The position numbers and the translations under genes are program-made. A DNA stretch of 40,861 nucleotides from Acidobacteriota bacterium (GTDB taxonomy: Bacteria; Acidobacteriota; Blastocatellia; UBA7656): positions 1-40,861 of the forward strand of contig JBBPIG010000038.1 of NCBI GenBank assembly GCA_038040445.1, given 5' to 3'. Below are positions 7,592-27,560 of the stretch, one piece after another. Below the pieces are notes generated by a model. The model saw nothing but the letters and a program-made list of their open reading frames with translations. It ran no database searches and was not told where the DNA came from. Position 1 is the first letter of the stretch; each line of letters starts with the position of its first letter.

Positions 7592-7884
7592 TTTGCCGCC
7601 ATCGCCTCCCACAACAAAACTCGCCGACCATTAACTGAAGCCGCGCTTTTGATATGACAGCCACGGCCCAGCCAAGAGACTACAGCCAGATGCGTCTCGC
7701 ACCGTGGATTCCGCGTGGTGAGTTTCGCGTTGACGAGTCAATGCGTAGCTACGCTATAACTGCAAGGACCCCAAGTAGTTTGATTAATAAGCGCGCTATC
7801 GTACTTCTCTAAGGGCCTCTGCTATTCTTGCTATGGTTACGACGGTCGCGAGGCCGCGATTCAAAGCCCAGAGTACTGAAGCTC

Positions 7885-13107: not shown

Positions 13108-13131
13108 GCATCCAGAGGCGCCCCAAAGAAC

Positions 13132-13869
13132 CTAGTTGCCACCGTCGCCTATCACAATGAATCCGGCCCAGTAATAAGGCTTCATTCTATATCGCGGATC
13201 GCTCATCATTATTAAGACAGCCTGCCGCCACGCTTCGGCTTTAGAAATCTTCCTGTCGCTTGATCCGGCGCCCACAACGTTCTTGTGAAAACCAAGCATC
13301 AGTTTCGTTGTGCTTTCGGAAGGAACTTGCCATTGGCTCGCGATCGTGGTCGGCACGCCGGCTACGAAGAGCGCCCAGGTCATTCCTATCATCCCTTCTC
13401 CATCGCCCACGCGCCCTCTTGCCGTATCGCATGCTGACAGCACTACCATTTCGGCTTTCAGATCCATCTTCATCAGCTCCCAAGCTTCGAGGAGACCATC
13501 CTCGCTCGAGTCGCCGCCGGACGCAAGGACGATGTAAGAATATAACGGGTTGCGATCATCGAATACTCCGTGAGTTGCGAAGTGAAGCACTCTGTACTTC
13601 CCCATCTCGGCCTTAACAGTGTCTTCTCGCGCCGCCGATCCAATGCGAACTACGCTTCCCTGCGCCCCGTACACCTCAGCCACAAGAGTCTGCGCCTCTC
13701 TCTCCGTTTCGGGAAGGGGAACAAGAGGCGCATTCCTTAACGTCTGCGCCCGCGCTAGGGCCTCACCACCAAAAGCGGGGTTTCCAATAGCGTAGAATTG
13801 CCCTGTTTGGACTCTCGATAACGAGGAATCGCCGTTTTGTTCCTTCTTGCTCAGAGGTACTGAACGCAA
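13132..13869 (-). CDS. CHAT peptidase domain, frameshifted C-terminal part of a TPR-CHAT protein
   Basis: 245 residues from a TTG that is probably not a real start. This is the CHAT (caspase-like) domain: catalytic His100 in HFATHG and Cys147 in LSACDTA, with the flanking blocks FYAIGNPAF and GVPTTIASQW. Both catalytic residues are present. The frame overlaps 13851-16088, which carries the TPR part and the first CHAT strands (DDTLWNLPFQAL) and stops just where this frame takes over. About a dozen residues normally joining the two blocks (a YAPS-like stretch) seem to be missing. A small deletion that also shifted the frame explains this. Without a ribosome site the domain is probably not made as a free protein. 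Confidence 0.75.
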   Translation of the reverse strand: MRSVPLSKKEQNGDSSLSRVQTGQFYAIGNPAFGGEALARAQTLRNAPLVPLPETEREAQTLVAEVYGAQGSVVRIGSAAREDTVKAEMGKYRVLHFATHGVFDDRNPLYSYIVLASGGDSSEDGLLEAWELMKMDLKAEMVVLSACDTARGRVGDGEGMIGMTWALFVAGVPTTIASQWQVPSESTTKLMLGFHKNVVGAGSSDRKISKAEAWRQAVLIMMSDPRYRMKPYYWAGFIVIGDGGN

Positions 13870-16088
13870 GCTATCAGGTACTTATCCCTGGCGTTTTGTA
13901 ACGCCTGGAAAGGAAGATTCCAGAGGGTATCATCAGGAACAATGCATACAGTACTCTTGTTGTTTAGATACGGTTCTGCTGGTTTGATTAATAGATCATA
14001 AAGCTCAAGACCGATCTGCCTGAAGCCCGGATGATTCGTGGACAATAGGTTCCGAAATCTCTCCACCATCGCAGATAACGCGCTCTTCTTAATATCTATA
14101 GAGTAGACGCCAACGTTTACTTTGCCCCAAGTTGTTGAATCCCTGGTCAATACAAACAAGAACGTGTGCTCGTCTGTTACGACGTATTCCAAAACTGTCG
14201 TTTTGTTATCTGATACGAGCTCGCCTGCATCTTCAATTGTAAATACAGGGAAGAGGCCCCGCTTAGCTTTCTCCTCCGGGTGTGCTGCGTACAGCCCTGC
14301 TTGGAATGCTTCATACGCATTACGGGCCTTCTGTAGTCGAGTCTCCAGTCCTTCTATTCGTTTTTCGTCTGGCTGCTGACGCATCCTCTCGCCGCGAATC
14401 TGAGTGTTAAGAGCGACCATTTCGCTGTACAGTTTCCGCTCTTCCGACCGCTCGCTTTGACTCAACGAGTTGTTAACGTTGATCCGACCGTTTCGAAAGA
14501 CATCGAGCAACACGCGCCCCTTCGCCCGCTCAGCGTACTTCAAGGCTTCTTCGACTTTGCCTTGCTGGACGAGCATCGAAACCATTTCGAGATAGGGAGA
14601 GATTCTATTTTCAAAGAAAAGTTGTTGCTCTTTCTCCGCACCTGCAACTTGATCTCGCATCTGCTCAACGGCTTCGATGCCCTGCGTGAAAGACTCGGTC
14701 GCGAGCGCGTTTTCGTTTTGCGCGCGATAAACTTTCCCTTTGAGAGTTAGAGTCAGGTAGTTCATCAGCGGCGACCGAAGCAGTCTTGCCAGATCAGCCG
14801 CGCTATTAGCCGCAGCGCTTGATCTTGCGTAGTCCCCCTGCGAATAGAACACCTGCCCTTTGCGCCAAAGGAGTTCCGTTGTGCGAATCTTGTCCCCTAT
14901 TGTTTGAGCAAGCGGCAATGCCTTATCAAGCCAAGCCGACGCTCTCGCATAATCGCCCTGCGCCTGATACACGGCTCCCAGGCCTTCCTGGGCAGCGATG
15001 ATTATTTCAACCGCGTCGATCTCCTCGGCCCTCTTCAGACTATTCTGCAATTCCTGTGATGCGGCTTCGTACTTTCCTTGCCTGTAATCTATTACTCCGA
15101 TGTTCAAGAGATTCCTTGCGATCTCCCGCCTGTTGTCTACTTGCATGAAGATCTTCAGGCTTTGATTCACGAATTCGGAAGCTTTCAAATAGTCGCCTTG
15201 TTCGATGTATAAGACACCCATGTCGTTAAGCACCGCCGCGGTTCTGCCCTTATCGATCAATGTCTTCGCTGTGTCCATCGCTTGAGACAAATAGTTGAGC
15301 GTTTGGATGTGGTTACCCATGACCTGGTACACATGACTGATATCCACCAAAGCATCCGCTATGTTGCCGGCAGACCGGAAACCGCCTTGTAGCAGTTCCC
15401 TCCACAAAGCGAGCGCCTTTTTGAAATTATCCAATGCGGCGTCGTAATCGCCTTTCCACTTGGCTACATGGCCAAGATTCGACCAGGCAAAGGCAATCCC
15501 GTATTTGTCGGGCAATGCACCCGCAGGATCATTAACGTTCTTCAGCGACGCCGCGAGTGATATGCTCTCCAATGAGTATTGCTCAGCCTTAACGTAGTCT
15601 GCCGCGTAAATGTGTAGCGTCCCAAGTTCACCCAGAATGTAGATAAGGTCTCTGCGCGAATTAACTTCCTCGAATGCTGCTTTGCTCTGGAGATATTCTT
15701 CTATCGCTATTTTGATTTTGTCTTGTTCAAAATGAACGCGTCCCATGTTGTAAAAGACGCGTGCGAGAAACTTCTTATCTTGTAGCTGCGTCGCCGCTGC
15801 CTTTGCGACGTTACAGAGGAACATCGATCTGGCTGAATCCCTTAGAGCGGAAGACATAGTCACGGCCTGCAGCAGCGAGTCGCACAGTCGCGCGGTGACA
15901 AGTTCCTTGTTACCTCTCAATAATGACAAAGCCGTTAGTTCATCACCTGTTTTCACGGACACCAACGCTGAGAGCAAATCGCCTTCGGTAGCGATCCGCA
16001 GAGTACTTGTTGACTGCGGGGATGACGGAATACTCACCTGAAGACTAACGAGGACTACAGAAAGAAAACGAACGGGCCTGAATAACAT
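13851..16088 (-). CDS. Exported TPR protein, N-terminal part of a broken TPR-CHAT protein
   Basis: 745 residues. Residues 1-24 form a signal peptide. From about 105 to 470 there are about nine tetratricopeptide units with the pattern A-x-x-x-LG-x-x-Y-x-x-x-GDY-x-x-A, a helical region at about 480-570 follows, and the chain ends at the start of a CHAT domain (WNLPFQALQNARDKYLI) before running into a frameshift. In intact homologues the TPR array recruits a substrate or partner and CHAT cleaves it. The signal peptide places this protein outside the cytoplasm. The small exported-peptide gene at 16196-16387 lies 107 bases upstream on the same strand. The ATG at 16088 has only a weak ribosome site. 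Confidence 0.8.
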   Translation of the reverse strand: MLFRPVRFLSVVLVSLQVSIPSSPQSTSTLRIATEGDLLSALVSVKTGDELTALSLLRGNKELVTARLCDSLLQAVTMSSALRDSARSMFLCNVAKAAATQLQDKKFLARVFYNMGRVHFEQDKIKIAIEEYLQSKAAFEEVNSRRDLIYILGELGTLHIYAADYVKAEQYSLESISLAASLKNVNDPAGALPDKYGIAFAWSNLGHVAKWKGDYDAALDNFKKALALWRELLQGGFRSAGNIADALVDISHVYQVMGNHIQTLNYLSQAMDTAKTLIDKGRTAAVLNDMGVLYIEQGDYLKASEFVNQSLKIFMQVDNRREIARNLLNIGVIDYRQGKYEAASQELQNSLKRAEEIDAVEIIIAAQEGLGAVYQAQGDYARASAWLDKALPLAQTIGDKIRTTELLWRKGQVFYSQGDYARSSAAANSAADLARLLRSPLMNYLTLTLKGKVYRAQNENALATESFTQGIEAVEQMRDQVAGAEKEQQLFFENRISPYLEMVSMLVQQGKVEEALKYAERAKGRVLLDVFRNGRINVNNSLSQSERSEERKLYSEMVALNTQIRGERMRQQPDEKRIEGLETRLQKARNAYEAFQAGLYAAHPEEKAKRGLFPVFTIEDAGELVSDNKTTVLEYVVTDEHTFLFVLTRDSTTWGKVNVGVYSIDIKKSALSAMVERFRNLLSTNHPGFRQIGLELYDLLIKPAEPYLNNKSTVCIVPDDTLWNLPFQALQNARDKYLIACVQYL

Positions 16089-16195
16089 GGTTGGTTTGCC
16101 CGGATAGAAACAGAGAACTTAGAGTCAACGGTAAGGGGAAAGCAATGCTCTCCCCTCACCCGAAGACATCATATTGTCTCGCACGGTTGGTGTGC

Positions 16196-16387
16196 TCACC
16201 ACAGCCGTAGCGCGGCGGCCAAGAGGGCAGCTATCTCTGCCAATGTTAGAGTCGAGCCTCCACTTGATTGTGAGCTAGATGTATTCTGCGGCCCACCCGT
16301 CTCGGCACGAGCGGTAGTCGACTGCAAGGCAAGCCCAACTGTCAAAATGATGGCCAGGCTGAGCAGCATGGATCTGACTTTCTTCAT
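16196..16387 (-). CDS. Small exported peptide upstream of the TPR-CHAT gene
   Basis: 63 residues. An N-terminal signal peptide (MKKVRSMLLSLAIILTVGLA, cleavage likely near ARAE at 28-30) is followed by a Ser/Thr/Gly-rich stretch and a short hydrophobic C-terminus ending in LRLW. AAGGAG sits 6 bases before the ATG, so translation is well supported. It precedes the exported TPR-CHAT gene on the same strand and may be co-transcribed. The mature peptide is only about 33 residues, with a C-terminal amphipathic or membrane-seeking helix. No family recognised. It could be a substrate, a signal or a lipid-binding peptide linked to the CHAT protein; this is inference from position only. Confidence 0.65.
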   Translation of the reverse strand: MKKVRSMLLSLAIILTVGLALQSTTARAETGGPQNTSSSQSSGGSTLTLAEIAALLAAALRLW

Positions 16388-16632
16388 GGCATCTCCTTAA
16401 GTGATTGGGATTTCAACGCCGCTTTGATAACGGCTTTCACATCGTGAGGGAACGTGGTCAATATTGTTTGCTGAGTCGTCAGCTAATAAATGAACGCGGC
16501 GCTGCAGAGGGTCTTCTGTTCTATGGCGGGGCTAGTAACTCTTAGAGATCCCTCACCCAACAACCGCGTGCTCGAATGATAAAGAACCAGTTCGTATGTC
16601 TTCCGATGCAAGGCTACTGCATCGATACCAAG

Positions 16633-18588
16633 TTATGGAGCCTGCTTCAGCAAATGTTCCTGCACAAATAATGCGATCGCGTAAAGTCTGAAATCCCGGT
16701 TCGCTTTCTTGCTCCAGTCATGACCTTCGTCTTTTGCAAGGAGATACCAGACTGGCGTCCCATTCTTCTTGGCGGCCGCGACCATTTGCTGCCCTTCCGT
16801 GGCCGGGACCCGCGGATCGTTCCTTCCTAGAATAATGAAGAGCGGCTTCTTAATTTTGTCGGCGTTATTTGCCGGCGCGGTTCGCTCTAAGAACTCTCGA
16901 ACCTTTGGATCGCGCTCGTCGCCAAACTCGACTCGCTGCAAATCTCGCCTCCAACCCGCTGTGTTCTCGTTAAAGGTCACGAGATTCGACGGCCCTGAAT
17001 CCGATATGGCGGCACGAATGCGTTCGCTGTAGTTCGTCGCTACAGACAGTGCCACGTAACCTCCATAGCTGCCACCTTGGACCATAACTCGATCCGCGTC
17101 GAGACCGCCCTGCTTCTTAATCCAATCAAACAGAGCACCGATATCCTTCCAGGCGTTCACCCGGAGGATGCCGTTGTCGAGTTTGTGAAAGCTCTTGCCG
17201 TAGCCCGAGGACCCACGCACGTTCGGGAAGATCAGCACAACTCCAAGCTCATTGAGGAAATAGTTGTTGTGATACCCGAACTCCGGTCGATACTGTTCTT
17301 CAGGACCTCCGTGAATATTGATAATTACAGGTCGCTTGCCCGTGAAGGTTGCAGGCGGGCGATAGAGGAATCCTGATATCATTTTGCCATCAAAGCTTTT
17401 CCAAGTGATTTGCTGTGGCTCGGGCAGCTTGTCGAAATCGATTCCACCAGTCGCAGCGCTGTACCAGTGGTCGATCTTACCTGTGTTCGCGTTGACTGAG
17501 TACACGTCATTCGGAGTAAGCCGTGATCTGAGATTGAATGCGAGGTCAACGGAGTTACTGTGCCATTGTAGATCTGAGATTACGCCTACCGGCAAAGAAG
17601 GGGCCGCCTTCTCCTTGCCAGCCTTCGTGTCAAGGATATGAAGTCGAGATACTCCATCCTCGTTAGACACGAACGCTAAACTTTTCCCGTCAGGCGCAAG
17701 CCTGAACTCCTCAACATCCCATTTGATATCGTCCGACAGATATTTGTACTGCCTTGTCGCGAGATCCAGATACGCAAGACGCCGAAACTCTGAATCATGA
17801 TCGGTAACGACATAGACTCCCTTCCCATCCTTGCTGAACTGCGGATAGTCGTAGTACTCATCCTCCTTTCCTTTCTTTGGGCTCAGGAGGGTCTTCTCTC
17901 CGGTTGCCACATCGACTATCCAAAGGGTGCTTACTGTGTTCGAAGCAAAGTTACAAAAGACAGCCTTATGGTCGTCGGCGGACCAGTCATAGGCTTTCAA
18001 ATAGTTTCCTTTGCCCTCCACCAGCAAGCGCACCGTTTTCGGATCGAGAGGGTTGATGATAGACAGGTCGACGCCGTTCCCGTTCGGTGGCGATGAGCTG
18101 TAGATTATTATGTCACCACGGTTGGACCAAACCGGCTCGGTGTTTCTTGACTTCCCATCTGTAATCAGCGTGCTTTTCCGGGTCGAGATGTCATAAAGGT
18201 AGAACTGAAAGAAGTCGTTGCCATTGGTGTCCTTGTTGTAGACAAGGTACTTGGCCTGTGGCTGGTGGTACACGTCGTACACGCCCGTCGGGATGAAGAA
18301 CGAAAGTTTCGGCGACACGCCGGGTGTGTCTCCGCGAAGAATCCACGTTTCGCTGCCAGCTAGGTTCTTGAACAGCAGTTCGCGTTTGGTAAGGTCCCAG
18401 CCTGCCACCCGGAAGCCCCATGCATTCGTGTATCGGTTGACTGTTTGCGCCAGGGACGTGGGTATCTTCGGAATGCCATCGACTACGAGACTATCGCCTG
18501 GCGCAATCTCACCGTTGTTGGCAGTCTGCGCGAGGCCTGAATTTGCCACCAGGACAACAATGCTCACAATACGCGCAAGTCTGATCAT
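16633..18588 (-). CDS. Exported S9-family prolyl oligopeptidase-type serine peptidase
   Basis: 651 residues from ATG 18588, chosen because it opens a clean signal peptide (residues 1-20, ending in GLAQ) and has GGAG about 12 bases upstream; the frame is open 30 codons further upstream. Residues 50-390 form a beta-propeller with repeated WS-x-D/G and S-x-D-GK patterns. Residues 400-650 are the alpha/beta-hydrolase domain with Ser507 in GGSYGGY, Asp591 in GRNDPRVP and His623 in DEGHDW, a complete catalytic triad. HGGP at 426-429 is the expected oxyanion region. The family cleaves short peptides, often after proline or with dipeptidyl specificity; specificity cannot be read here. It lies between the CHAT cluster and the integrative-element genes. 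Confidence 0.9.
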   Translation of the reverse strand: MIRLARIVSIVVLVANSGLAQTANNGEIAPGDSLVVDGIPKIPTSLAQTVNRYTNAWGFRVAGWDLTKRELLFKNLAGSETWILRGDTPGVSPKLSFFIPTGVYDVYHQPQAKYLVYNKDTNGNDFFQFYLYDISTRKSTLITDGKSRNTEPVWSNRGDIIIYSSSPPNGNGVDLSIINPLDPKTVRLLVEGKGNYLKAYDWSADDHKAVFCNFASNTVSTLWIVDVATGEKTLLSPKKGKEDEYYDYPQFSKDGKGVYVVTDHDSEFRRLAYLDLATRQYKYLSDDIKWDVEEFRLAPDGKSLAFVSNEDGVSRLHILDTKAGKEKAAPSLPVGVISDLQWHSNSVDLAFNLRSRLTPNDVYSVNANTGKIDHWYSAATGGIDFDKLPEPQQITWKSFDGKMISGFLYRPPATFTGKRPVIINIHGGPEEQYRPEFGYHNNYFLNELGVVLIFPNVRGSSGYGKSFHKLDNGILRVNAWKDIGALFDWIKKQGGLDADRVMVQGGSYGGYVALSVATNYSERIRAAISDSGPSNLVTFNENTAGWRRDLQRVEFGDERDPKVREFLERTAPANNADKIKKPLFIILGRNDPRVPATEGQQMVAAAKKNGTPVWYLLAKDEGHDWSKKANRDFRLYAIALFVQEHLLKQAP

Positions 18589-18843
18589 CTCGTTACTGAC
18601 TCCGTGAACGAGTTCTCGCCCGAACTTTCTCCCACGCGTATTAAAGACGGTGACCAATCCTATTTCTTCCAGCCTCAAGAATATTTTTCTTCGTACTGGG
18701 TTCTACCAGTAACCACCTGCTCCAAAGCCGGCATTCTGCCTCATGGAAATAATGCGAGCAGAGGATGAAGCATGGCAAATGGTTACTGGCCTGTGGCAGG
18801 TAGACTCCGTGACCGCGCCCCCCATGCTCCTTTTGATCAGCCA

Positions 18844-19962
18844 TCAAGACTTCTTTTGTTCCAGTCGCTCGTGCTTGCATTTTGCGGCGCCTTCCCGACC
18901 ATCCTTTTCGATGACCTTGAAGCCTTGGCCATTGCAGTCAGGGCACCGGCTTATATCGGATCGTTGCGGCTGCGGGGTGAGATAAAACTCTATGAGGGTA
19001 TCGGCTTCGCCTGTTCGATGGATGGTTCTGGCGAAACCTCCAGGGTTGACAATTCCCTGTCCTGTTTTCTGAAGGTGGTTTGCATATCGACGACATTCCT
19101 CTAGGGTGAATCTCGATACCACACCCACACAAGCCTGTGTTTGTGTGTGTTCTTCATGAATTGTTTCTTCTTTATATTCTATACTGCGACCGGATTCTGC
19201 ATGGCTTGCAATTCTTGCTTGGCTTGCAGAAATTGCAAGGCTTGCAGCTTTTGCAGGGGCCGACGCTGGAGTAACCCAGTATTCTATGCCCTGGTCTTTT
19301 CCTTTCCCTGAGATCATCGCTCCCCTTCGGACGAGGCCCTTGCTCTGCAACAAGTCTATGGCATCTGAGGTGCTCCTCGGACTCAGATTCGAGCGCCGGG
19401 CAAGTCTCGGTAGGCTTATCAAACAGTTAGGGCATCCTCTGCCCCACGATAATCTGTAGAGCTGGATATGAACGATCTGCTCTTTTGGTGAGAGCTGGCA
19501 ATAAAGGTGATCGACGACCTGATGATGTAACTTCGTGAAGCCCGCAATCTCAGGCAGCGAATCCATAAGGCTTGTCAGAGTACGCTGCGCCGGTAGGCGT
19601 GCAGCACTTGCAAGCCTAGCAGGATTTGCAAGGCTAGCATTTTGCAGACCAAACGTATCGGTTTTTGCAAGCCTTGCAGAATCTGCAAGGCTTACGAGGT
19701 CTGCATCTTTTGCTTCATCGGATAGGCTTGTTGAGCTTCCCTGGTTAACCTCCAGTTCCTCCTCTTGAGCAGTTGGGGAGGAACGGAGGCGGCCCAGTTT
19801 TTGAGCTTCTGGGCTTTCGTTGGGCGGTTGTTGAGGCCGTATGAGTTCCTCATGAGGGAGTCGCAGTAGAGGCGGTACAGAAAGACCAAGTTTCTTGGGG
19901 TGGGGCGTTCGGAGCGATGCTGGTTCCTTCTTCTGTTTTCGTTCTGGCATTCGCGGCCTCAC
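18844..19962 (-). CDS. Winged-helix replication- or partition-like protein with repeat-bearing linkers
   Basis: 372 residues starting at a GTG that overlaps the ParA stop codon (GTGA), so translation is coupled; ATG at 19950 is an alternative. About residues 155-232 form a winged helix-turn-helix (LARRSNLSPRSTSDAIDLLQ, then KGLVRRG). The C-terminus holds a small zinc-ribbon-like block, CPDCNGQGF ... CKH. Low-complexity linkers at about 90-123 and 235-258 have a six-residue period (ASLAxS/ARLAxx). They are encoded by 18-bp tandem DNA repeats (19201-19254 and 19567-19704). Position after ParA and near an integrase suggests a replication initiator or ParB-like partner. I do not recognise a specific family. 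Confidence 0.6.
   Translation of the reverse strand: MRPRMPERKQKKEPASLRTPHPKKLGLSVPPLLRLPHEELIRPQQPPNESPEAQKLGRLRSSPTAQEEELEVNQGSSTSLSDEAKDADLVSLADSARLAKTDTFGLQNASLANPARLASAARLPAQRTLTSLMDSLPEIAGFTKLHHQVVDHLYCQLSPKEQIVHIQLYRLSWGRGCPNCLISLPRLARRSNLSPRSTSDAIDLLQSKGLVRRGAMISGKGKDQGIEYWVTPASAPAKAASLAISASQARIASHAESGRSIEYKEETIHEEHTQTQACVGVVSRFTLEECRRYANHLQKTGQGIVNPGGFARTIHRTGEADTLIEFYLTPQPQRSDISRCPDCNGQGFKVIEKDGREGAAKCKHERLEQKKS
19201..19254 (-). repeat. Three tandem 18-bp iteron-like repeats
   Basis: Three contiguous 18-bp units at 19201, 19219 and 19237. Each reads NNGGCTTGCA, four variable bases, then TTGC on the plus strand. They lie inside the gene at 18844-19962, encode a six-residue repeat, and resemble plasmid iterons or a partition centromere. 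Confidence 0.75.
19567..19704 (-). repeat. Degenerate cluster of the same 18-bp repeats
   Basis: Units related to AAGGCTTGCA-N4-TTGC recur at 19594-19611, 19612-19629, 19630-19645 (two bases short), 19668-19685 and 19686-19703, with a partial unit near 19568. The spacing is 18 bases where intact. The cluster sits in the same gene as 19201-19254, about 340 bases away. Confidence 0.65.
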
Positions 19963-20774
19963 TTCACAGCGGCGAGTTTGTTTCTGCTCATCTCGAGACG
20001 GTCCAGTATTTCATCCGTCAAGCTCCAGAGCTGATCTGCCGCCCGGTGCTTCTCGGCATACATGACAGCCGGCAACTTTTGTGAGGGTGCTTCAGCGATT
20101 TTGGAATAATCGTGCAGGTTGGTATCGAATACATGGCTTACTAAAGCGATTGCCGCCTCAACGGCCGCTCGGGACTCGGCCGAAAGGTTCCGTTGTGGTT
20201 TGTAGAGGTTGATTACGGCGCCAAGCATTCCTAAGTCCGAGTTAACGTTCTTGCGGACCTGCTCGATCGTATAGGCAAGGTCGGCTAAGCCTTGGAGCCC
20301 CATGGCATCAGCAGCGCAGGGAACCAAAACGTAATGCGCCGAGTACAGAGCGGCAGTGAGTAGCTTGCCGAGCTGCGGGGGGCAATCGATAAACACAAGA
20401 TCGTAACCGGACGCGTGCTCTCTAATCTGTTTAGTCAGGCGGTGGGCAAGATAGTCCGGCTGCATTTCGAGTCTTGCAAGGCGTATATCCGCGGGGACCA
20501 GGTCGAGATTAGTAAGCGGACTCTCGACGATGGCATCATCGAGATCTCTCGGTTCCAGCTTTATGCCCGCCTGCGCCTCCGGTTCAATCAGAACGTGAGA
20601 GAGCGTGATGTTGTAGATGTCCGGTTCAACCCAACTCGCAGTCAAATTAGCTTGTGGATCGCAATCGATTACGAGCGTTTGATAGCCTCGAAGCGCGCAA
20701 CAAGCGGACAACTCCCTAGTAACCGTCGTCTTACCAACGCCGCCTTTCTGGTTCGCGACTGCAATGACTTTCAT
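19959..20774 (-). CDS. parA: ParA-family partition ATPase
   Basis: 271 residues with the deviant Walker A KGGVGKTT at 10-17, DCDPQANLT (switch I) at about 38-46 and the Walker B-like LVFIDCPPQ. This is the Soj/ParA type that segregates plasmids and chromosomes by ATP-dependent DNA binding. There is no N-terminal helix-turn-helix, so it is of the small, chromosome-like form. Its stop overlaps the start of the winged-helix gene at 18844-19962, and no ParB is present. Together with the integrase and excisionase genes upstream this marks a plasmid-like integrative element; the partner is likely the downstream winged-helix protein. Confidence 0.88.
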   Translation of the reverse strand: MKVIAVANQKGGVGKTTVTRELSACCALRGYQTLVIDCDPQANLTASWVEPDIYNITLSHVLIEPEAQAGIKLEPRDLDDAIVESPLTNLDLVPADIRLARLEMQPDYLAHRLTKQIREHASGYDLVFIDCPPQLGKLLTAALYSAHYVLVPCAADAMGLQGLADLAYTIEQVRKNVNSDLGMLGAVINLYKPQRNLSAESRAAVEAAIALVSHVFDTNLHDYSKIAEAPSQKLPAVMYAEKHRAADQLWSLTDEILDRLEMSRNKLAAVK

Positions 20775-20968
20775 CGTTCAGGCCTCTCTTGTCTTCAGCC
20801 CGCACAAGTCTTGCCCAACGCCGAGTTCTTGAGCGCGGCAATGTTCACGCTCGAAGAGTTCGAAGCTCTCTCGCAGACCGGTGCGCCACCGAGTCAGGTT
20901 AGCGAACCCTGCCTGCGCGCCGCTTTCGAGTCCTACGACGACGAAAATGAACAGACCTTATTCACTGG

Positions 20969-21169
20969 CTATCTGGATCTGTGGGCGCTGCTGCTGTCGC
21001 CGTTCAGAAACTCGTCAACAGCCTTCAGACTGAACAGAACTCGGCGACCTATGCGAACGGGTTTTAGTCGTCGCGATCGAACAAGCTTCCACAATGTTGT
21101 TCGTGAGATTTGAAGCGCTTCGCAGACTTCAGGAACTGAGTAGGTGAGCTTTGGAACGTTCGTAGCCAT
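20969..21169 (-). CDS. Excisionase-like helix-turn-helix protein
   Basis: 66 residues from ATG 21169 (MATNVPKLTYSVPEV); AAGGA lies about 12 bases upstream. Residues 10-55 match the small MerR/excisionase-type winged helix (SVPEVCEALQISRTTLWKLV, then VRIGRRVLFS). Such proteins bind element DNA and bias the integrase toward excision or act as regulators. It lies between the integrase and parA on the same strand, the usual order in integrative elements. An upstream extension to 21235 is possible but has no ribosome site. Confidence 0.8.
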   Translation of the reverse strand: MATNVPKLTYSVPEVCEALQISRTTLWKLVRSRRLKPVRIGRRVLFSLKAVDEFLNGDSSSAHRSR

Positions 21170-21413
21170 AAGAAAAGTCCTTTCGAAATTGTGATTGAAC
21201 TCTTTCCTATGGAAGGACGATGCGCAGATTCTCATGGTGCTTCTCGGTCTGCGCTTGTGTCAGCAAGTTAGCACATAGACATTCTGTCATCAAGAAAAAT
21301 CGCAACGACAAGAAATCGGAGCGAAGAACATCGCGAGCGCGCATTGAGAACTGAAGTCAAAGTTTGACGAAAAGGAGAGCCGCCCGCTCAGTACGACGGC
21401 AAAGGAAATGCTT

Positions 21414-22601
21414 CTAATGAACTGCTGTAGGCGCTGCCTCAGTCGGGGGACTATTGTACTCGTCCAACATCGCGGCAGCGCGCCTTGCGGTCTCCACATT
21501 CGCGTTCACGTAACGGAAGGTCGTATTCGCCTGCGTATGCCCCAGCATCCTGCCCACCTCCGCCAAGGGGAGTTGTTTGGACACCAACCGTGTGGCGTGA
21601 GTGTGCCGAAGATCGTGAAATCTCAAATCAGCGAGCCCTATTTTTTTCTTTAGTTTGTCGAACGCTGTCTTGACACTCGTTTTCACGTTGAACACCAAGG
21701 CGTCCGGCTCGGCACACTCCAAAAGTGGCAACAACTCTGATATCAACCGAGAAGTCATCGCGACCTGGCGTTCCCTCATGATTTTCGTATTGAAAGCCCG
21801 GATCGTAATCAATCCGTTTTCAAAATCAATATCAGACCATTTGAGCTTAAATATCTCACCACGTCGCATCCCCGTATCAAGGGCGCAGATCAATATGGCT
21901 CTCAAATGTGCTTTCGCCTCGACGCAGCCGGCCAAGAGTCGAGTTTCCTCCTCTCGGGTCAGTATCCGTTCTCTCGGCTTCTCGTCGCCAGGGTTAATGA
22001 GAGACCGGCCCATTTCAAAAGGGTTCTTTTGAAGCCAACCGTTTGAGACTGCCACATTCAAAATGCGCCGCAAGAATGACAACTCTCGATGTACTGTTGC
22101 AATTGACCGATCGCGCTCTTTGGGGCTGCCTTTCTCCTTAGTTCCTCTCGTGTTTCTTCCTATCACGACTGGGGTCTTCAGACGATTTGTTTTGTACTGC
22201 TCCAGGTCGCCGTGAGTGACGGCACGCACTCTCTTCCCGCCGAAGAACGCCTTTAGAGGTACCAGCCGTTTCTCTAAATCATACTTTGAACGCAGCCCGG
22301 CGATCTTGCGCCCGTCCCTGTACTCCGGTTCCACCAGATACGTCTTCTGGTAGTGATCCGCAAGTTGCACAAACGTCATCGCATGAGCATCAAACGCCTT
22401 ATTGTCACTGTCCAGCTTGGCGAGCATTTCACGCGCTTTGTCCCTTGCGCTTCCTTCGCTATTGTAGGCGGGCTTTCGTTCGATCCGTCGCTTCATGCCC
22501 GAATCATCGATATATTCGATCCGGGCGTACCAGACCTTATGCGTCTTCTTGCCTTTCTTGATCTTTCTCGCTAATGCGCAGCCTGTTCTATATCGTGGCA
22601 T
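21414..22601 (-). CDS. Tyrosine-type site-specific integrase
   Basis: 395 residues. The N-terminal ~75 residues form an arm-type DNA-binding region, about 75-185 the core-binding domain, and 210-370 the catalytic domain. Catalytic residues are all present: Arg246 in GMRRGE, Lys273, His329 and Arg332 in FHDLRHTHATRL, His355 in LGHT and Tyr364 in RYVN. Nothing suggests truncation. The gene starts about 140 bases from a 3' tRNA-Thr fragment (22741-22785), its probable attachment site, and reads away from it. It should catalyse integration into, and with the excisionase-like protein excision from, tRNA-Thr. Confidence 0.92.
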   Translation of the reverse strand: MPRYRTGCALARKIKKGKKTHKVWYARIEYIDDSGMKRRIERKPAYNSEGSARDKAREMLAKLDSDNKAFDAHAMTFVQLADHYQKTYLVEPEYRDGRKIAGLRSKYDLEKRLVPLKAFFGGKRVRAVTHGDLEQYKTNRLKTPVVIGRNTRGTKEKGSPKERDRSIATVHRELSFLRRILNVAVSNGWLQKNPFEMGRSLINPGDEKPRERILTREEETRLLAGCVEAKAHLRAILICALDTGMRRGEIFKLKWSDIDFENGLITIRAFNTKIMRERQVAMTSRLISELLPLLECAEPDALVFNVKTSVKTAFDKLKKKIGLADLRFHDLRHTHATRLVSKQLPLAEVGRMLGHTQANTTFRYVNANVETARRAAAMLDEYNSPPTEAAPTAVH

Positions 22602-22740
22602 CGTTCACCTTTTCATTCACCTATTCACTGCGATTCGAGGAGAACAATAGCAAACCTGGGAATAAGGAAACAAGTAGAAATACTGAGAAAGTTGACAGGT
22701 GCACAGTGGTGAATACACCGAGGAACGGTGGAGCGCTGTT

Positions 22741-22785
22741 TTCGTAAACCGGAGGTCAAGGGTTCGAGTCCCTTCGCTGGCTCCA
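22741..22785 (+). other. 3' fragment of tRNA-Thr(CGT): probable attachment-site scar
   Basis: 45 bases read as a tRNA from the anticodon loop to CCA: loop TTCGTAA (anticodon CGT at 22743-22745), 3' anticodon strand ACCGG, variable AGGTC, T arm AAGGG-TTCGAGT-CCCTT, acceptor strand CGCTGGC, discriminator T and encoded CCA. The 5' half is missing: no GCCAGCG and no D arm upstream, and the base-pairing breaks at the anticodon stem. This is what tyrosine integrases leave at the far end of an element. The intact tRNA is not in the window. Confidence 0.8.
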
Positions 22786-22906
22786 TATTTCTCGCTTTGG
22801 TCAGTTATTCGGTCAGTTAATCAATCGTCAAATCTTCCTCGCGCTTTCCTGCTCAGCGTTCAAAAAAGTTATTCGCGGACCTGGTTGTGGCGGCCGAAAG
22901 GCCCGT

Positions 22907-22935
22907 AAAAAAAGGAGGCCCAAGCTGAATGGGCC
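22907..22935 (-). terminator. Rho-independent terminator, minus strand
   Basis: On the minus strand GGCCC-ATTCAGCTT-GGGCC forms a 5-bp GC stem, followed by TCC and seven T residues. It lies 16 bases beyond the stop codon of the gene at 22951-23424 and would end its transcript. Confidence 0.75.
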
Positions 22936-22950
22936 GGAACCTACGCGCTT

Positions 22951-23424
22951 TCATTCCGCTAGTCTAGCGGACAATCGCTTCACACCCAACGACCAAGAAC
23001 TGCTCACGACCAAATCTGGCGCGACATCGAAATACTCACGCACCGGGGTCTTCGCAACCCGTGCGCGAACCACGTATGCATCAATGGCCTTGTCAGAGTT
23101 GCTGCCCCTGCGCCTCAAGACGGCGATCTGGCTCGTTCCCTCAGTTATGTACACGAGGATGTTCTCCAGCAATTCCTCGTGACCGGCCCAGTCGAGTGCC
23201 ATAGAGGTGACGACCAGACGTTCAGTAGTGCTTCCGGTTCGGAGCATTACCGCTCTACTTGGGTCAAGGCTCGCGCGCAGAGCTTCGGGCACGGGTGGTG
23301 CCTGAGAATCGACAAGGAGTGTGATAAATTGCGATGGATGTCTTGGCACAATGTGCGATCGGTACTTGTGAGCCATGAACGAGTTGTTCGTACAACGATG
23401 CTCGATCAACTCATGCTGTGACAA
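22951..23424 (-). CDS. C-terminal part of a two-frame protein of unknown function
   Basis: 157 residues. The nominal TTG start at 23424 overlaps the end of the frame at 23411-23920, and an in-frame ATG lies 16 codons later. The sequence continues naturally from the upstream frame (PNVVTA then QHELIEHRC), so the two are best seen as one gene with a frameshift at about 23411-23424. Visible blocks are TERLVVTSMALDWAGHEELL and ENILVYITEG, which recall the closing part of glutamine-amidotransferase-like folds used in large uncharacterised proteins. No catalytic residues can be named. A terminator follows at 22907-22935. Confidence 0.5.
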   Translation of the reverse strand: MSQHELIEHRCTNNSFMAHKYRSHIVPRHPSQFITLLVDSQAPPVPEALRASLDPSRAVMLRTGSTTERLVVTSMALDWAGHEELLENILVYITEGTSQIAVLRRRGSNSDKAIDAYVVRARVAKTPVREYFDVAPDLVVSSSWSLGVKRLSARLAE

Positions 23425-23920
23425 CGTTTGGATAGGAGAAAAGTGGATCGGACGGGACCGACTCGGTCATGAGGCCTTCCGCAGACGAGCTTTCAGGCCT
23501 ATCGTAGAGACCATACTCGTATCGTTCGGGGAGAAACCCTGTGATGCGGGCTTTCTCCCCGAACTTTTGACTTAGCTTCTTCTGGGAGCAGACCAGAATT
23601 CCTCGTCCAATGCGCAGGAACTCTTCTACAAGCGAAGCATTGGAACGCAGGGCCTGAAGCACCTCGATGTTGTTTGTGGCGTTGGTGGCGACAATCAAGC
23701 TGTCGAAGGTGGTTAAGTAGTTCTCGCCGTCGCGAAGAAACATGCGGTGGATATTGTACTTGTCGAAGGCGAAGAATCGGTAAGTGTCCAGTTTCTGGTC
23801 GCCAAGTGCAACTGGACGCTTGAGAACTCCAAGGGTGTCCGCGAAAGCGGAATGTGCGGCCTCATTCTCATTTACTAGGATGGCAATCCTAAACACTACT
23901 TCCCCCTGTCTGGAGTTCAC
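23411..23920 (-). CDS. N-terminal part of a two-frame protein, GATase-like fold suspected
   Basis: Up to 169 residues from GTG 23920. A GTG at 23896, preceded by AGGGGG, is the better-supported start and opens with VFRIAILVNENEAAH. Alternating beta strands and helices (FDSLIVATNA, then VEEFLRIGRGILVC) suggest an alpha/beta fold like the ThuA or class I glutamine-amidotransferase group, but no nucleophile motif is clear. The frame ends in TGA at 23411 inside what looks like continuous protein sequence, with the rest in another frame at 22951-23424. It is just outside the tRNA-Thr scar. Function unknown. Confidence 0.5.
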   Translation of the reverse strand: MNSRQGEVVFRIAILVNENEAAHSAFADTLGVLKRPVALGDQKLDTYRFFAFDKYNIHRMFLRDGENYLTTFDSLIVATNATNNIEVLQALRSNASLVEEFLRIGRGILVCSQKKLSQKFGEKARITGFLPERYEYGLYDRPESSSAEGLMTESVPSDPLFSYPNVVTA

Positions 23921-24462
23921 CCTGTCCGTAGACGGGTTAGCGGAGTCCCTTCATCGCGGGTGCGGGCATACGCTGGTGCGAATTGAGGAAGTAGGGACCG
24001 GTATGAAGGATACATTACGAGCCGGTTTGACATTCGAGTTTGAATTCCAAATCCCGGAATTCACATAAGTCACACAGCAGTACGTCCGCGCCGTCCGCAT
24101 GCAGGCCTGTTGCCTCTCGGCTGGGCCGAATGGCCCGAATGAATTAACAATCTCGCGACGCCGCAATCCTATATCCCAGACGGCGATCCTGCAACGTACA
24201 TGATACCGACAAAGACTACCGCGCGGACCGCATTGCGCATAACGCCTCATAAGCGAGCATTAGTGTCACCAGGAAATAGCTACGTAACTTAAGTCAAAAG
24301 GCAGGCAGGGCTACCTCCAAGAAGGATCTTCCGGTATTTCTCAGAAACACACGAGTAGCCATACTTATACTCACAATAGGCGGGAGTAGACTCTTTAATG
24401 TCTGCTCTCCGTTTGTACCCTCAAGCTTGTACCCTTGAGACTCGTTGACGCTTTCCCGAACA
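23921..24462. other. Intergenic stretch with no recognised gene
   Basis: 542 bases between the two-frame gene and repeat copy 2. No supported gene was found. A short tandem repeat of about 13 bases (TTGTACCC...) lies at about 24414-24441. Confidence 0.4.
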
Positions 24463-24574
24463 CTGCGGTATTTTTAGCGGCAAATCTTAGGCGCCTCACC
24501 GTCTAATAATATCGGGGACCTCACCTCCCGCGAGTAAGCGAGTCTCAAACATTGCGAATGCCTTGCTGCGCGGG
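24463..24574 (-). repeat. Dispersed 112-bp repeat, copy 2
   Basis: Matches 4850-4962 in the same orientation with about ten substitutions and one indel. On the minus strand it begins in the last codons of the small exported-peptide gene at 24545-24673 and runs about 80 bases past its stop, ending TACCGCAG. The non-coding part is the better conserved part. Confidence 0.75.
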
Positions 24575-24673
24575 CGAAGTCTGAGCAATCGCGTTGATCG
24601 CTGCGCTCGCCAGCATAACGGTTGTGAAGGAAAGCAATGTTAAGACTTTCAGCAACCGAGTCAACGATCTCAT
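24545..24673 (-). CDS. 42-residue exported peptide after the PAS-LuxR gene
   Basis: ATG at 24673 lies 7 bases after the TAG of the PAS-LuxR gene, so it is probably translated from the same mRNA. The peptide starts MRSLTRLLKVLTLLSFTTVM, has a signal-peptide core and an AIAQ cleavage-like site at about 29-31, leaving a mature tail of only about 11 residues (TSPAQQGIRNV). No strong ribosome site is seen. The last ten codons fall inside the dispersed repeat, and repeat copy 1 keeps the same reading (QQGNRDV then stop), which supports the frame. Function unknown. Confidence 0.45.
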   Translation of the reverse strand: MRSLTRLLKVLTLLSFTTVMLASAAINAIAQTSPAQQGIRNV

Positions 24674-24680
24674 ATCGAGA

Positions 24681-25358
24681 CTATATCAGCCCGGCGTGTT
24701 CAGCACGGCGAATTGCTTCCAGGCGAGTGTGGACGTCTAGCTTTCGCAGGATGTGTTGGATGTGATTGTTGACGGTGGTTCGGCTGATGTGAAGCTGCTC
24801 AGCTACGGCCGTTGTTGTAACGCCCTTAGCCAGGAGTCTGAGCACGCTGACTTCGCGATCAGAGAGTTCCGTTTCACGAGCGGGCGCCCGAGTTGAAGAG
24901 ATCAAAGTGGTAGCTAGCTCCGGGGCGAGCCCCGTGCCCGTGACGACAAAATCGCGTACGAGCAGCTCGAGCCGCTTGCGAACATCGATTTGACGAACGA
25001 TGTGTATTGAGTAAGGCAGCGTGGTGTTGGCTTCATCGGCGATCAGCACAGAGACATTGCACCATTGCCTGCCGCTTGCTGTCTGAATGTGAAGATCGAA
25101 GTTGCTGACTGGATGGTGATTGCGAACGGCCTGCTGGACGCTGCAGTCGGCTGAGCACACGGGACCGCATTCATCCATTCCCTGAATGATCTCGCCGCAC
25201 GTCTTGCCGATCGCATCGGCCGCGGTCAGGCCAAACATTGCTTCAGCCGCGATGTTCCAGGCGGCCATGTGGCCGACCCCGTCGACGGCAAAAGCCGCGT
25301 CCGAAGTGCTCTCCACCAGGTCTTTGATCTCGCGAAGCCGCATGAGCAACCTGACCAC
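24681..25358 (-). CDS. PAS-domain LuxR-type transcription regulator with clustered cysteines
   Basis: 225 residues from GTG 25358, or 220 from ATG 25343; AAGG lies upstream of the GTG. About residues 8-130 form a PAS sensor domain with an unusual cysteine group: Cys54, Cys64, Cys68 and Cys72 ([15 protein letters not shown], then DC). Residues 163-220 are a LuxR/GerE helix-turn-helix ([35 protein letters not shown]). No receiver domain is present, so the signal is read directly by PAS. The cysteines could bind a metal or Fe-S cluster or act as a thiol switch; this is inference. The gene diverges from the small exported protein at 25490 and lies about 750 bases from the respiratory cluster. Confidence 0.8.
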
Positions 25359-25489
25359 TTATTTGATGTGCCTTGATTATTGTTTAAAGGCCGGGAAAAG
25401 GCAATCATACTGCGCAATCGAGGCTTCGCAGGCAAAGGGAAAACTAACTGAGAAATACGTCCTCATCTTGTCGAACCCGGAGGAAGAAT

Positions 25490-25804
25490 ATGAAAGGTAG
25501 AATCGTCAATCTTAGAAAGCTGTTCCCGCTGGTCGCTGTGCTCGTCTGTGCGAGTGTTGCCAATCCTCAGGCGGATCGCCGTCTGCCCGACCTCACCATA
25601 CAAGCAGGAACTGTAACTGAGAAATCGCCAGTAGTGGATCTGAAAACCGCGGGTAAAGAGGTGGCTCCGGGAGTGTTTGAAGTGGACCCCGCTTCTATTC
25701 GCGGCAAGCGGCTCGGACTACCTCGTGGTGGCCAAGCCTTACGGGCAATCTGCATCGGACAATGGAGGAAGGGCGAATGCAAGGGGATCTACATCGAGTG
25801 GTAG
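25490..25804 (+). CDS. Small exported protein of unknown function
   Basis: 104 residues with a strong ribosome site, GGAGGAAGAAT before the ATG. Residues 1-27 form a signal peptide (KLFPLVAVLVCASVANPQA). The mature part is polar, with the segments DLTIQAGTVTEKSPVVDLKT and GVFEVDPASI and two cysteine-bearing stretches near the end (ICIGQW, GECKGIYIEW). No family recognised. It is divergent from the PAS-LuxR gene with 131 bases between, so it may be its target. The pattern fits a small periplasmic or surface protein. Confidence 0.55.
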   Translation: MKGRIVNLRKLFPLVAVLVCASVANPQADRRLPDLTIQAGTVTEKSPVVDLKTAGKEVAPGVFEVDPASIRGKRLGLPRGGQALRAICIGQWRKGECKGIYIEW

Positions 25805-26112
25805 CTACTACTCTGAGCTAACAACTCGCTCAACACGGATCGTTTACCTCGACGTTAGGCGCCGACCGTACGGGCCGGCGCGGATGGACGCTAGGCTGCT
25901 TTCTTTACGACTACTCTTACAATGCCACGACTTTGCGCGCCTCGAGCACGTACACATCAAGCCCGCCTCTTTACAATCCAATCATCAAAATGATTAGGCC
26001 TGATTATTGTCCTCCGAACGGAGACAAGTGATCATAAGGGACAAAGAAGTACGCTTGTAGAAACGGCTGGAAACTCGCGCTGGAAAATTCGGGCCGGAAA
26101 GTCGGGCTCAAG
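25805..26112. other. Leader region of the respiratory cluster
   Basis: 308 bases upstream of the Rrf2-type gene. No gene is supported, although a frame runs through it to 25997. Apart from the three GGAAA-containing repeats at 26066-26106 nothing was recognised. The promoter of the nar-act cluster probably lies here. Confidence 0.4.
26066..26106 (+). promoter_or_regulatory. Three GCYGGAAA direct repeats before the Rrf2-type gene
   Basis: GCTGGAAACTCGC, GCTGGAAAATTCGG and GCCGGAAAGTCGGG follow each other at 13-14 base spacing and end 6 bases before the ATG at 26113. They could be an operator for the Rrf2-type protein itself or a translational control site, since no Shine-Dalgarno is present. 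Function is inferred from position. Confidence 0.4.
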
Positions 26113-26550
26113 ATGATCTTCTCAAAGGCTACAGGTTATGGAATCCGCGCGCTGGCCTATCTGGCCAAGCACCCCCATACCGGGCTGTGTGGCCTTCAAG
26201 AGATCGCCGAACACGAGCACATTCCGCCGGTCTACTTGCGCAAGGTGCTCGGTGAGCTTCGCCGCCATCGGCTGTTGCGCTCGGTCAAGGGGATTCACGG
26301 AGGATACGAATTGGCGCGGCCGCCTCAGACCATAACGCTGTGGGAGGTATTTCGACTGTTGGAGCCGGACCCTTATCTGGATGCGTGCATATTGGGATGC
26401 GGCCCATGTGATCCTGAGTCATCGTGCGCGCTGCACGAAGACTGGCAGAAGCTGCGAAGCGGGTTGGTTGGGCTGATGCAAACCAAGACGATCTCCGAAG
26501 TAGCCGCCTCTGCTTCAACTCATCAGCAGGCTGGCGTTTCGGACACATAG
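26113..26550 (+). CDS. Rrf2-family transcription regulator with a cysteine motif
   Basis: 145 residues. Residues 1-75 form the winged helix of the family (MIFSKATGYGIRALAYLA; IPPVYLRKVLGELRRHRLL; SVKGIHGGYELARPP). Cys92, Cys96, Cys99 and Cys105 (CILGCGPCDPESSC) sit where NsrR, IscR and RsrR bind a [2Fe-2S] or [4Fe-4S] cluster, with one cysteine more than the usual three. Such proteins sense NO, redox state or Fe-S supply. It is the first gene of the nar-act cluster, 28 bases before the dihaem cytochrome, so control of nitrate or nitrite respiration is a reasonable inference. Confidence 0.85.
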   Translation: MIFSKATGYGIRALAYLAKHPHTGLCGLQEIAEHEHIPPVYLRKVLGELRRHRLLRSVKGIHGGYELARPPQTITLWEVFRLLEPDPYLDACILGCGPCDPESSCALHEDWQKLRSGLVGLMQTKTISEVAASASTHQQAGVSDT

Positions 26551-26578
26551 CGACGGAGACAAAAACCGGAGCGGACTT

Positions 26579-27466
26579 ATGTCAGACGCGAAGACTAGAT
26601 TCAAATTGGTGGTGTTAAGCACATTCGTTGTCGCATCGCTCGCCGTCGTATCGGCGCAGACACAAGCTCCGTCGCCCGCCGCTACGCTGTTCGAGAAGAG
26701 CTGCTATAGCTGCCACAACATCGGCGGCGGAGACAAGAAAGGCCCCGACCTCAAAGGCGTCACCTCGCGACGGACTCGCGAATGGCTGCACCAGTACATC
26801 GCCTCGCCCGCAAGTATGAATCGCAACGGCGATCCTGCGGCGGCCGAGCTGTTTAAGAAGTACGCTCCCGAAGTCATGCCTGATCAGGCGACGACCCCGG
26901 ACCAGATCGACGCGATCCTGGCGTTGATCGAGGATCTCTCGAAGAAGAACGAAACCTTCGTGCCCGCGGGCGCGAAACTCGCCAGGCCGATCGTTCCATC
27001 CGACATCGATGCCGGACTCGCGCTGTTCACCGGAAGCGCGCCACTTGAAAGTGAGGGCACTGCGTGCATCTCGTGTCACAACGTAAACGGAGTCGCCACA
27101 CTGGGCGGTGGAACGCTCGGCCCTGATTTGACTGCTGTCAACACGAAGTACAAAGACCCGGAGCTGATCGGGATTCTCCAGAATCCCAACTTCCCGACGA
27201 TGAAGAGCGTGTTCGGAACGCGCCCGCTTGCCGACGAAGAGATCGTCCGACTGTTCGCCTATTTTCAGAACGCCAAGCTGACTCAACCGGCAGCGCAGAT
27301 GAACCCGGGAATCGTCCGGCTCGATCCGTGGTTCGTGGTGGTTGGCTTCTTTCTGACGTTGCTCTCGGTGTGGTCGTTCAGTTTGATCTGGCGGAATCGG
27401 CTTCAGGGCGTGCGCGAGCCGATTGTAAGCGCGGCCGCAAAGAGTCACAAGAGGCATAAGAGATGA
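26579..27466 (+). CDS. Membrane-anchored dihaem cytochrome c, NarC-like subunit
   Basis: 295 residues. Signal peptide at about 1-27, two cytochrome c domains with haem sites Cys42-x2-Cys45-His46 (CYSCH) and Cys163-x2-Cys166-His167 (CISCH), and one C-terminal membrane helix at 251-271 followed by a basic tail. Met208 and nearby Met residues are possible axial ligands. Directly before narG, this is the place and architecture of NarC of Thermus nitrate reductase and of the cytochrome gene at the head of Nitrobacter nxr operons. It should pass electrons between periplasmic c-type cytochromes or quinols and the NarGHI complex. GGAG lies about 7 bases before the ATG. Confidence 0.85.
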   Translation: MSDAKTRFKLVVLSTFVVASLAVVSAQTQAPSPAATLFEKSCYSCHNIGGGDKKGPDLKGVTSRRTREWLHQYIASPASMNRNGDPAAAELFKKYAPEVMPDQATTPDQIDAILALIEDLSKKNETFVPAGAKLARPIVPSDIDAGLALFTGSAPLESEGTACISCHNVNGVATLGGGTLGPDLTAVNTKYKDPELIGILQNPNFPTMKSVFGTRPLADEEIVRLFAYFQNAKLTQPAAQMNPGIVRLDPWFVVVGFFLTLLSVWSFSLIWRNRLQGVREPIVSAAAKSHKRHKR

Positions 27467-27467
27467 A

Positions 27468-27560
27468 GGTTCAGGGTTCAGGGTTCAGGGTTCGTGGTTC
27501 AGGGTTCCGGGTTCGTGGTTCAACTCGGAACTCTGAACCCTGAACCCTGAACCGTTTTTT
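27468..27560 (+). terminator. Long hairpin with T-run between the dihaem cytochrome and narG
   Basis: A perfect 21-bp inverted repeat: three tandem GGTTCAG units at 27468-27488 and their complement at 27533-27553, followed by GTTTTTT. The loop contains further GGTTC units. It has the form of an intrinsic terminator or attenuator placed 13 bases before the narG start; it is also a REP-like repeat. Confidence 0.6.

Follow-up and report, generated by a model that had tools for sequence, protein, structure and literature searches.

The window, the whole 40,861-bp contig C38 of a 6.75-Mb Acidobacteriota genome (72 contigs), raises the question of what an array of short repeats is doing inside a gene. 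The gene encodes a 372-aa winged-helix protein and overlaps parA, with which it forms a two-gene cassette (Table 1). Do the repeats serve as an origin, as a centromere, or do they merely encode a repeated peptide? The original prediction held that, with parA present and no parB, they may be the origin or the centromere and the encoded protein their DNA-binding partner. The window ParA matches PF13614 (E 1.6e-43), and the Walker ATPase of a type I ParABS system is thus present in the operon. The window contig has no ParB_N domain (PF02195), but ParB_N proteins are encoded elsewhere in the genome, on contigs C8 and C1 only. The tyrosine integrase about 1.5 kb from the window cassette suggests that the cassette lies in an integrated element; searching positions 16000-27500, which surround the integrase, for direct repeats that could be att sites returned nothing convincing, and no tRNA was found in the window.

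Table 1. Positions of the cassette, its in-gene sites and its neighbors in the window
Feature	Position	Strand	Remark
372-aa winged-helix protein gene	18844..19962	-	proposed initiator / centromere-binding protein
C-terminal domain, CPDC...CKH zinc-ribbon-like motif	18847..19104	-	
A-rich element with AC/GT inverted repeat	19118..19185		limits by eye; candidate unwinding element
C-side site array, three units, period 18	19198..19254		palindromes 19198-19210, 19234-19246 (exact)
Winged-helix domain coding segment	19270..19557	-	contains only two weak half-sites (2 mismatches)
N-side site array	about 19569..19732		palindromes 19609-19621, 19627-19639, 19666-19678 (exact)
parA, 271 aa, KGGVGKTT Walker A	19959..20774	-	4-nt overlap with winged-helix gene
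Excisionase-like HTH_17 protein	20969..21235	-	context
Tyrosine integrase	21414..22601	-	context

The repeats had been described as three 18-bp units at 19201-19254, and their positions, exact period and shared motif all hold: the units at 19201-19218, 19219-19236 and 19237-19254 each read NNGGCTTGCA-N4-TTGC. Tandem Repeats Finder gave these C-side units a period of 18, 3.2 copies and 75% matches; thus, the units are evenly spaced but differ in sequence. A second cluster, placed at 19567-19704, is real and extends further, to the limits in Table 1. A 13-bp palindrome, TGCAAGSCTTGCA, accompanied by decayed copies, describes the unit better than a directional 18-bp iteron does, and half-sites occur in both orientations (23 within 2 mismatches in 19150-19760). 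The sites do lie inside the winged-helix gene next to parA, as proposed, but the palindromes flank the winged-helix coding segment on both sides. With at most 1 mismatch, the half-site GGCTTGCA occurs 13 times in the 1,119-bp gene and 47 times in the rest of the window; 300 first-order Markov simulations gave a mean of 1.69 and a maximum of 6 for the gene. Across the whole 6.7-Mb genome, TGCAAGSCTTGCA was found within 1 mismatch at 13 places, compared with 5 for a reversed control pattern. Five of the 13, both exact ones among them, fall in the winged-helix gene, and the other eight are scattered elsewhere. All but two of the 23 half-sites fall into just two codon phases, each belonging to one orientation, and therefore encode two different short peptides, not the single six-residue peptide repeat first suggested. 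In a structure model, both arrays correspond to segments predicted to be disordered that flank a confident winged helix (pLDDT below 50 across most of model residues 18-124 and 230-273, where model residue 1 is protein residue 6).

Searched against 396 genomes sampled from the phylum, the window protein had matches in 9, counting its own genome, and a winged-helix profile matched in 34 of 162 genomes of the class Blastocatellia (Acidobacteriota). The 64-gene set used below comprises 62 profile matches (60 of the 62 regions L047-L108, with L093 contributing twice, plus the window's own locus, L001) and two hand-added relatives of the window protein, L004 and L010; the larger regions around these two, L099 and L100, gave no profile match. 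Left out were L009, a 223-aa relative in which no repeats are evident, and, from the 77 rows that the profile search gave, 22 that were mostly weak. Counts over the 64 genes are not independent because the set holds near-duplicates (L060/L062, L049/L091, L050/L093, L104-L106 and L094-L096). L088 is counted but outlier-like, with no ATPase and no N-side; it was excluded from the analyses of 8-mer coverage, array-versus-domain similarity, A+T-stretch position and N-side/C-side sharing, and L051 and L010 were also excluded from the last of these. In a genome contig collection, the window protein gave 25 stretches matching a pattern and no relative; neither the window protein nor L003 had a match in a plasmid collection, and L048 had none in a phage collection. 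PADLOC returned only two marginal matches among the relatives (E 5e-4 and 7e-4).

Are the repeats kept as DNA or as peptide? Many different short peptide repeats lie beside the domain in the relatives (among them SLVNLTSL, NPVANSN, APHATLA, SQLTESQL, SDIMSYSD, PDSPAPDSP and SIERSIERS). As a null we used synonymous codon shuffles that keep the protein, 200 per winged-helix gene and 100 per control. Direct 9-mer repeats exceeded all 200 shuffles in 55/64 genes and inverted 9-mer repeats did so in 34/64, while local palindromes were in excess in 20/64. The controls behaved differently: the neighboring ATPase genes exceeded their 100 shuffles in 0/55 cases for direct and 2/55 for inverted repeats, and a sample of other flanking ORFs did so in 4/59 and 0/59. 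In 17/64 genes, identical DNA was read in different frames more than in any shuffle; 22 nt of L104 are read as both SIERSIERI and KLNVQLNV, and 28 nt of L062 as both RASSQRASSM and LSQLTESQLNL. At identical linker residues of 14 related pairs, codons agreed at 365/402 positions (91%) in sites versus 712/1049 (68%) outside when the sites were defined in one member of each pair, and at 387/426 versus 690/1025 when the other member defined them; the direction was the same in 13 of the 14 pairs. An earlier version of this test, with sites defined from both genes (351/370 versus 2050/3425), was biased and was replaced by the one-member definition, and expectation-maximization motif finding was too permissive for counting sites and was not used for counts. 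The expectation that the DNA repeats are better conserved than the peptide was therefore borne out, with repeats preserved in more than one reading frame and at synonymous positions too; the relatives show the reverse of a peptide repeat that persists after its DNA repeat has gone. On the strength of these sequence comparisons, the repeats are DNA-level sites rather than a peptide repeat.

Which protein would read these sites? Repeated 8-mers cover 22% of the N-side, 32% of the first 150 nt of the C-side and 5% of the remaining C-side, compared with 3% of the winged-helix segment, about 0.5% of the ATPase genes and flanks and 0.46% of the upstream flanks; the enrichment of the gene itself is by construction, but the distribution within it is not. 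They cover both sides of the domain in 59/61 genes. The N-side shares on average 14.3 9-mers with its own C-side and 0.94 with that of another gene; the own pairing was the higher in 60/61 genes and exceeded all 100 synonymous shuffles in 42/61. Array k-mers are common to pairs with at least 60% winged-helix identity: mean array similarity was 0.65 at identities of at least 80% (10 pairs), 0.42 at 60-80% (17 pairs), 0.08 at 45-60% and 0.03 below 45%. In this analysis, restricted to 48 genes with E up to 1e-15, the rank correlation was weak (0.158), and none of 999 Mantel permutations reached it. The closest ParA to that of the window, in L056 (79% identity), accompanies the palindrome TACAAG-N-CTTGTA, compared with TGCAAG-S-CTTGCA in the window. 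We also considered whether co-resident copies always differ, which holds only in part: among 74 pairs, three of the four most similar belong to one G274 trio with a single motif. Separately, one contig carries two cassettes about 6 kb apart with different repeats (L093:5680-7164 and 12829-13764), the second with repeats almost only on the N-side. Because the arrays are kept as DNA, are specific to the gene or close group and are common to close winged helices, sites for the gene's own protein are the natural reading. The encoded protein as DNA-binding partner is thus very probably right, and the array sites are predicted with high confidence to be its binding sites.

Beyond the C-side array, the gene carries an A-rich element. 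In the window it reaches 73% A+T over 45 nt, with its center 97 nt past the end of the winged helix and a mean of 48% for the gene, and the most A+T-rich 45-nt stretch falls 30-200 nt past the winged helix in 41/63 genes, where 15% would be expected if positions were uniform. Many genes with zinc-ribbon-like tails have a form resembling AATAAAGAAAAYACA-nTAAAAGAAAACACACAAACACAG, in many cases with a GT-rich stretch after it (21/64 by rule, of which L050 and L088 proved on inspection not to be the same element), and many with the other kind of tail have (GAT)n, an A-rich stretch and (ATC)n (17/64 by rule). A further 6/64 have only the A-rich core, and 20/64 have neither rule-based form. Over 120 pairs among 16 genes with the first form, codons at identical residues agreed at 692/796 positions in the element and at 2896/6588 elsewhere in the tail; in the 36 most diverged pairs the counts were 155/186 and 752/1828. 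Related elements are thus conserved as DNA in many relatives. Of ten genes tested for an RNA hairpin after the C-side array, only four had one that no more than 2 of 100 synonymous shuffles equaled in stability. The A-rich element is a candidate unwinding element.

Many relatives of the protein have an O-type domain. Phage_rep_O (PF04492) matched at E ≤ 0.01 in 22/27 and 13/24 rows of two alignments that have two genes in common, with a best E of 2e-8. The window protein itself had no Phage_rep_O match at E 0.01 in Pfam, matched O-like PHROG families (E 2.4e-4) and had PF13730 as its best Pfam family (E 2.2e-5, just under the curated cut-off). PF06970 (RepA_N) was absent from the Pfam matches at E ≤ 0.01 over the 51 rows of the two alignments, in which the two genes are counted twice. 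Residues 184-414 of L105 matched a DnaD-like loader in PHROG (E 3e-9), in the place where the window protein has its zinc-ribbon-like tail. Among fold matches of the winged-helix model, RepA_N initiators (4pql, Z 9.2, 3.0 A over 85 residues; 4pt7, Z 9.1) scored no better than generic regulators such as CRP, the centromere-binding winged helices of pNOB8 and TubR were among the weak matches, and Foldseek found no match reaching E 0.001 for either of two models.

By rule, an ATPase gene lies directly upstream in 55/62 cases: ParA in 31, a truncated ParA in 2 and an AAA+ protein in 22. The original prediction of parA as the partner is therefore right for the window, and a ParA is upstream in 33/62 genes overall, but an AAA+ ATPase takes its place in 22/62. 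Of the remaining seven, two (L051 and L064) start at the edge of a contig, three (L062, L078 and L097) have ATPase fragments on inspection, and L088 and L095 have no upstream ATPase. All 22 AAA+ proteins match PF13401 (AAA_22) and 5/22 match TniB; by profile, their nearest PDB entry is Orc1/Cdc6, with MuB also found, and a PHROG DNA transposition protein matches at E 4e-20. One member resembles the NCBIfam XrtA-associated ATPase (E 2e-42, under the model's cut-off). Both kinds of ATPase pair with both kinds of tail, and the N-terminal tails of the winged-helix proteins look, by eye, basic and different between the two ATPase classes. In one locus, a single 685-aa open frame joins ParA to the winged-helix protein (L097:4915-6969). 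A recurrent protein of about 275 aa with a stretch that looks ParB/KorB-like by eye is encoded near three cassettes (L058:2569-3411, L061:1786-2595 and L070:745-1569).

Where do the cassettes sit? Among 33 contigs tested for terminal overlap (14 including the window, 18 whole contigs and G274:C58 by both ends), two had a long exact overlap: G274:C31 (L096), with 87 bp, and G442:C18 (L129), with 123 bp. That of L079 was 15 nt only. The apparent circle of G274:C31 is 7,158 bp and has four large genes, encoding a WD40-like protein, a YhcG/DUF1016 PDDEXK nuclease, the winged-helix protein and ParA. The apparent 14,153-bp circle of G442:C18 carries an AAA-type cassette, IS110 and ISL3 transposases, a propeller histidine kinase with a LuxR-type regulator, a weakly helicase-like protein (AAA_11, E 6e-4; IGHMBP2-type, E 6e-4) and others. 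A scan of the two apparent circles recognized no other initiator family. On each circle the winged-helix gene contains the minimum of the detrended GC skew, though the skew amplitude lacks significance (117 and 1246 of 2000 block shuffles). DnaA boxes show no clear enrichment: their density is 0.28 per kb within the gene, compared with 0.17 in the upstream DNA and 0.29 immediately downstream. The cassette also occurs on two IMG/VR contigs, in one case adjoining phage tail genes; among the matches listed, few integrase genes lie on the same contig as a cassette. In ten inspected loci, several cassettes sit between ordinary-looking chromosomal genes, while a recombinase-like ORF was assigned by cluster in four loci (L061, L067, L068 and L074). 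Three genomes (L104-L106) have the same neighbors on one side, by eye ETF-QO-like and ThiD-like, which suggests long vertical residence. Chromosomal copies of the cassette may be integrated or silent.

The reading that we favor, with rather better than even confidence, is that the gene encodes an O/RepA_N-like initiator that carries the origin in its own sequence and is joined by a maintenance ATPase, the two forming a replicon cassette. An origin inside its own initiator gene, as originally predicted, is strengthened by the A-rich element, by the O-type domain in relatives and by the two apparently circular contigs; we regard origin function of the in-gene sites as fairly probable. That the same sites also serve ParA partition is a more tentative proposal. 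In the proposed mechanism, dimers of the protein would bind the arrays inside their own gene and melt the A-rich element, and the C-terminal domain would recruit a host helicase or primase, as is thought for lambda O and pSK41 Rep. ParA, or the AAA+ ATPase in 22/62 relatives, would then act in segregation or loading through the N-terminal tail of the protein, and the window cassette would reside in an element integrated through the neighboring integrase. Several observations stand against this reading. The window's partner is ParA, which points to partition, and for the cassettes between ordinary-looking chromosomal genes, extra active origins would be odd. Also on this side are the window protein's failure to match Phage_rep_O in Pfam, the weak fold matches, the unenriched DnaA boxes, the insignificant skew amplitude, the helicase-like protein on one circle, the 20/64 genes with neither form of the A-rich element, the hairpin result, the weak rank correlation and the single motif of the G274 trio. 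If the favored reading is right, it provides a recognizable plasmid replication and maintenance module for Acidobacteriota, a major soil phylum, and a natural experiment in protein-DNA coevolution, with dozens of winged helices that each have their likely binding sites in the same gene.

Precedents for an origin of this kind are at hand. In lambdoid phages, the origin is described as lying in the initiator gene, each iteron as an imperfect inverted repeat and an AT-rich tract as lying beside the iterons (PMC7466680). The cassette is similar, with multiple inverted-repeat sites in the gene, an adjoining AT-rich tract and an O-type domain in many relatives. Unlike lambda O, it has sites flanking the winged helix at either end, different C-terminal domains and an upstream ParA or MuB/ORC-like AAA+ protein with no P gene, and it occurs outside phages too. 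Plasmids of the pSK41 type are described as having Rep boxes centrally in rep, where the origin encodes a linker, along with a winged helix and a DnaD-like C-terminal domain, and the staphylococcal plasmid pPR9 as replicating through an initiator with a pfam13730 HTH (PMC5703833). The window protein shares PF13730 as its best Pfam family with the latter; it differs from RepA_N initiators in that the cassette has sites N-terminal of the domain as well, is coupled to an ATPase and lacks PF06970 in the two scanned alignments. Among the best-ranked literature matches, judged from titles and abstract openings and with most subscription journals outside the scope, such a cassette was undescribed.

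Could one protein do both? A single protein acting as initiator and centromere-binding protein, on one embedded array that is both origin and centromere, overlaps with the favored reading and draws on the evidence for replication and for partition alike. A precedent comes from Deinococcus, in which the cisII and cisMP repeats were reported to act jointly like an ori and like a parS (PMC7671480). This arrangement is economical but hypothetical, and we hold it as a possibility short of even odds. At about the same tentative level, one can picture a minimal two-gene replicon with a dual-role protein and a dual-role array, in which either ParA or a MuB/ORC-like AAA+ protein can fill the ATPase role and the specificities of site and protein codiversify like incompatibility types. 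Such an exchange, if true, would bear on whether these ATPases work by one principle.

The chief rival is partition alone, with the protein as a CTP-independent, ParT-like centromere-binding protein that has its parS array within its own gene, ParA or a MuB-like AAA+ ATPase as the motor that moves it, and replication left to something else. ParA lies directly upstream and overlaps in the window, an ATPase is upstream in most relatives, the tails are basic by eye, and pNOB8 and TubR appear among the weak fold matches; stand-alone chromosomal cassettes are also easier to understand as extra centromeres than as extra origins. SCP2 provides the precedent, since ParT is described with a ParA gene upstream, an 18-bp inverted-repeat parS in its coding sequence and an N-terminal peptide that activates ParA (PMC12260392). 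By analogy of layout, the cassette resembles ParATS in having ParA upstream of a helix-turn-helix gene with in-gene inverted repeats, but it has arrays where one 18-bp site is described for SCP2, and its ATPase can be AAA+. Against partition alone stand the O-type domain in many relatives, the A-rich element, the DnaD-like loader match of L105 and the two apparent circles, on which no other initiator family was recognized. AAA+ ATPases, moreover, are not known as partition motors. MuB, TniB, ORC-type and XrtA-associated ATPases resemble the alternative upstream gene, yet the cassette itself has no transposase or secretion gene and pairs its ATPase with an O-type protein. On balance, partition alone is possible but rather improbable.

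That the sites are only autoregulatory operators, through which the protein represses its own operon, would suit a winged-helix fold near repressors; however, the sites are many per gene and lie inside the second gene, with the upstream flanks hardly covered by repeated 8-mers, and we consider this unlikely. Ordinary low-complexity peptide repeats, with selection on the protein and the DNA repeat following, would account for linkers predicted to be disordered and for the phase of most repeated pairs (4437 in phase versus 1265 out of phase), but this explanation is already contradicted by the excess over synonymous shuffles, the inverted copies and the reading of identical DNA in different frames, and is very improbable. 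Rickettsia palindromic elements are selfish palindromic elements inserted in frame, and palindromes within coding sequence are what a similar origin would leave; with only eight further scattered places in the genome, arrays specific to a gene or close group and repeated 8-mers covering so little of the ATPase genes and flanks, this is the least credible explanation of all. Elsewhere in the window lie an open frame of 1,759 aa that contains a P-loop (GPSGCGKT; 7828-13107) and a 444-aa ORF that is transposase-like by eye (2851-4185).
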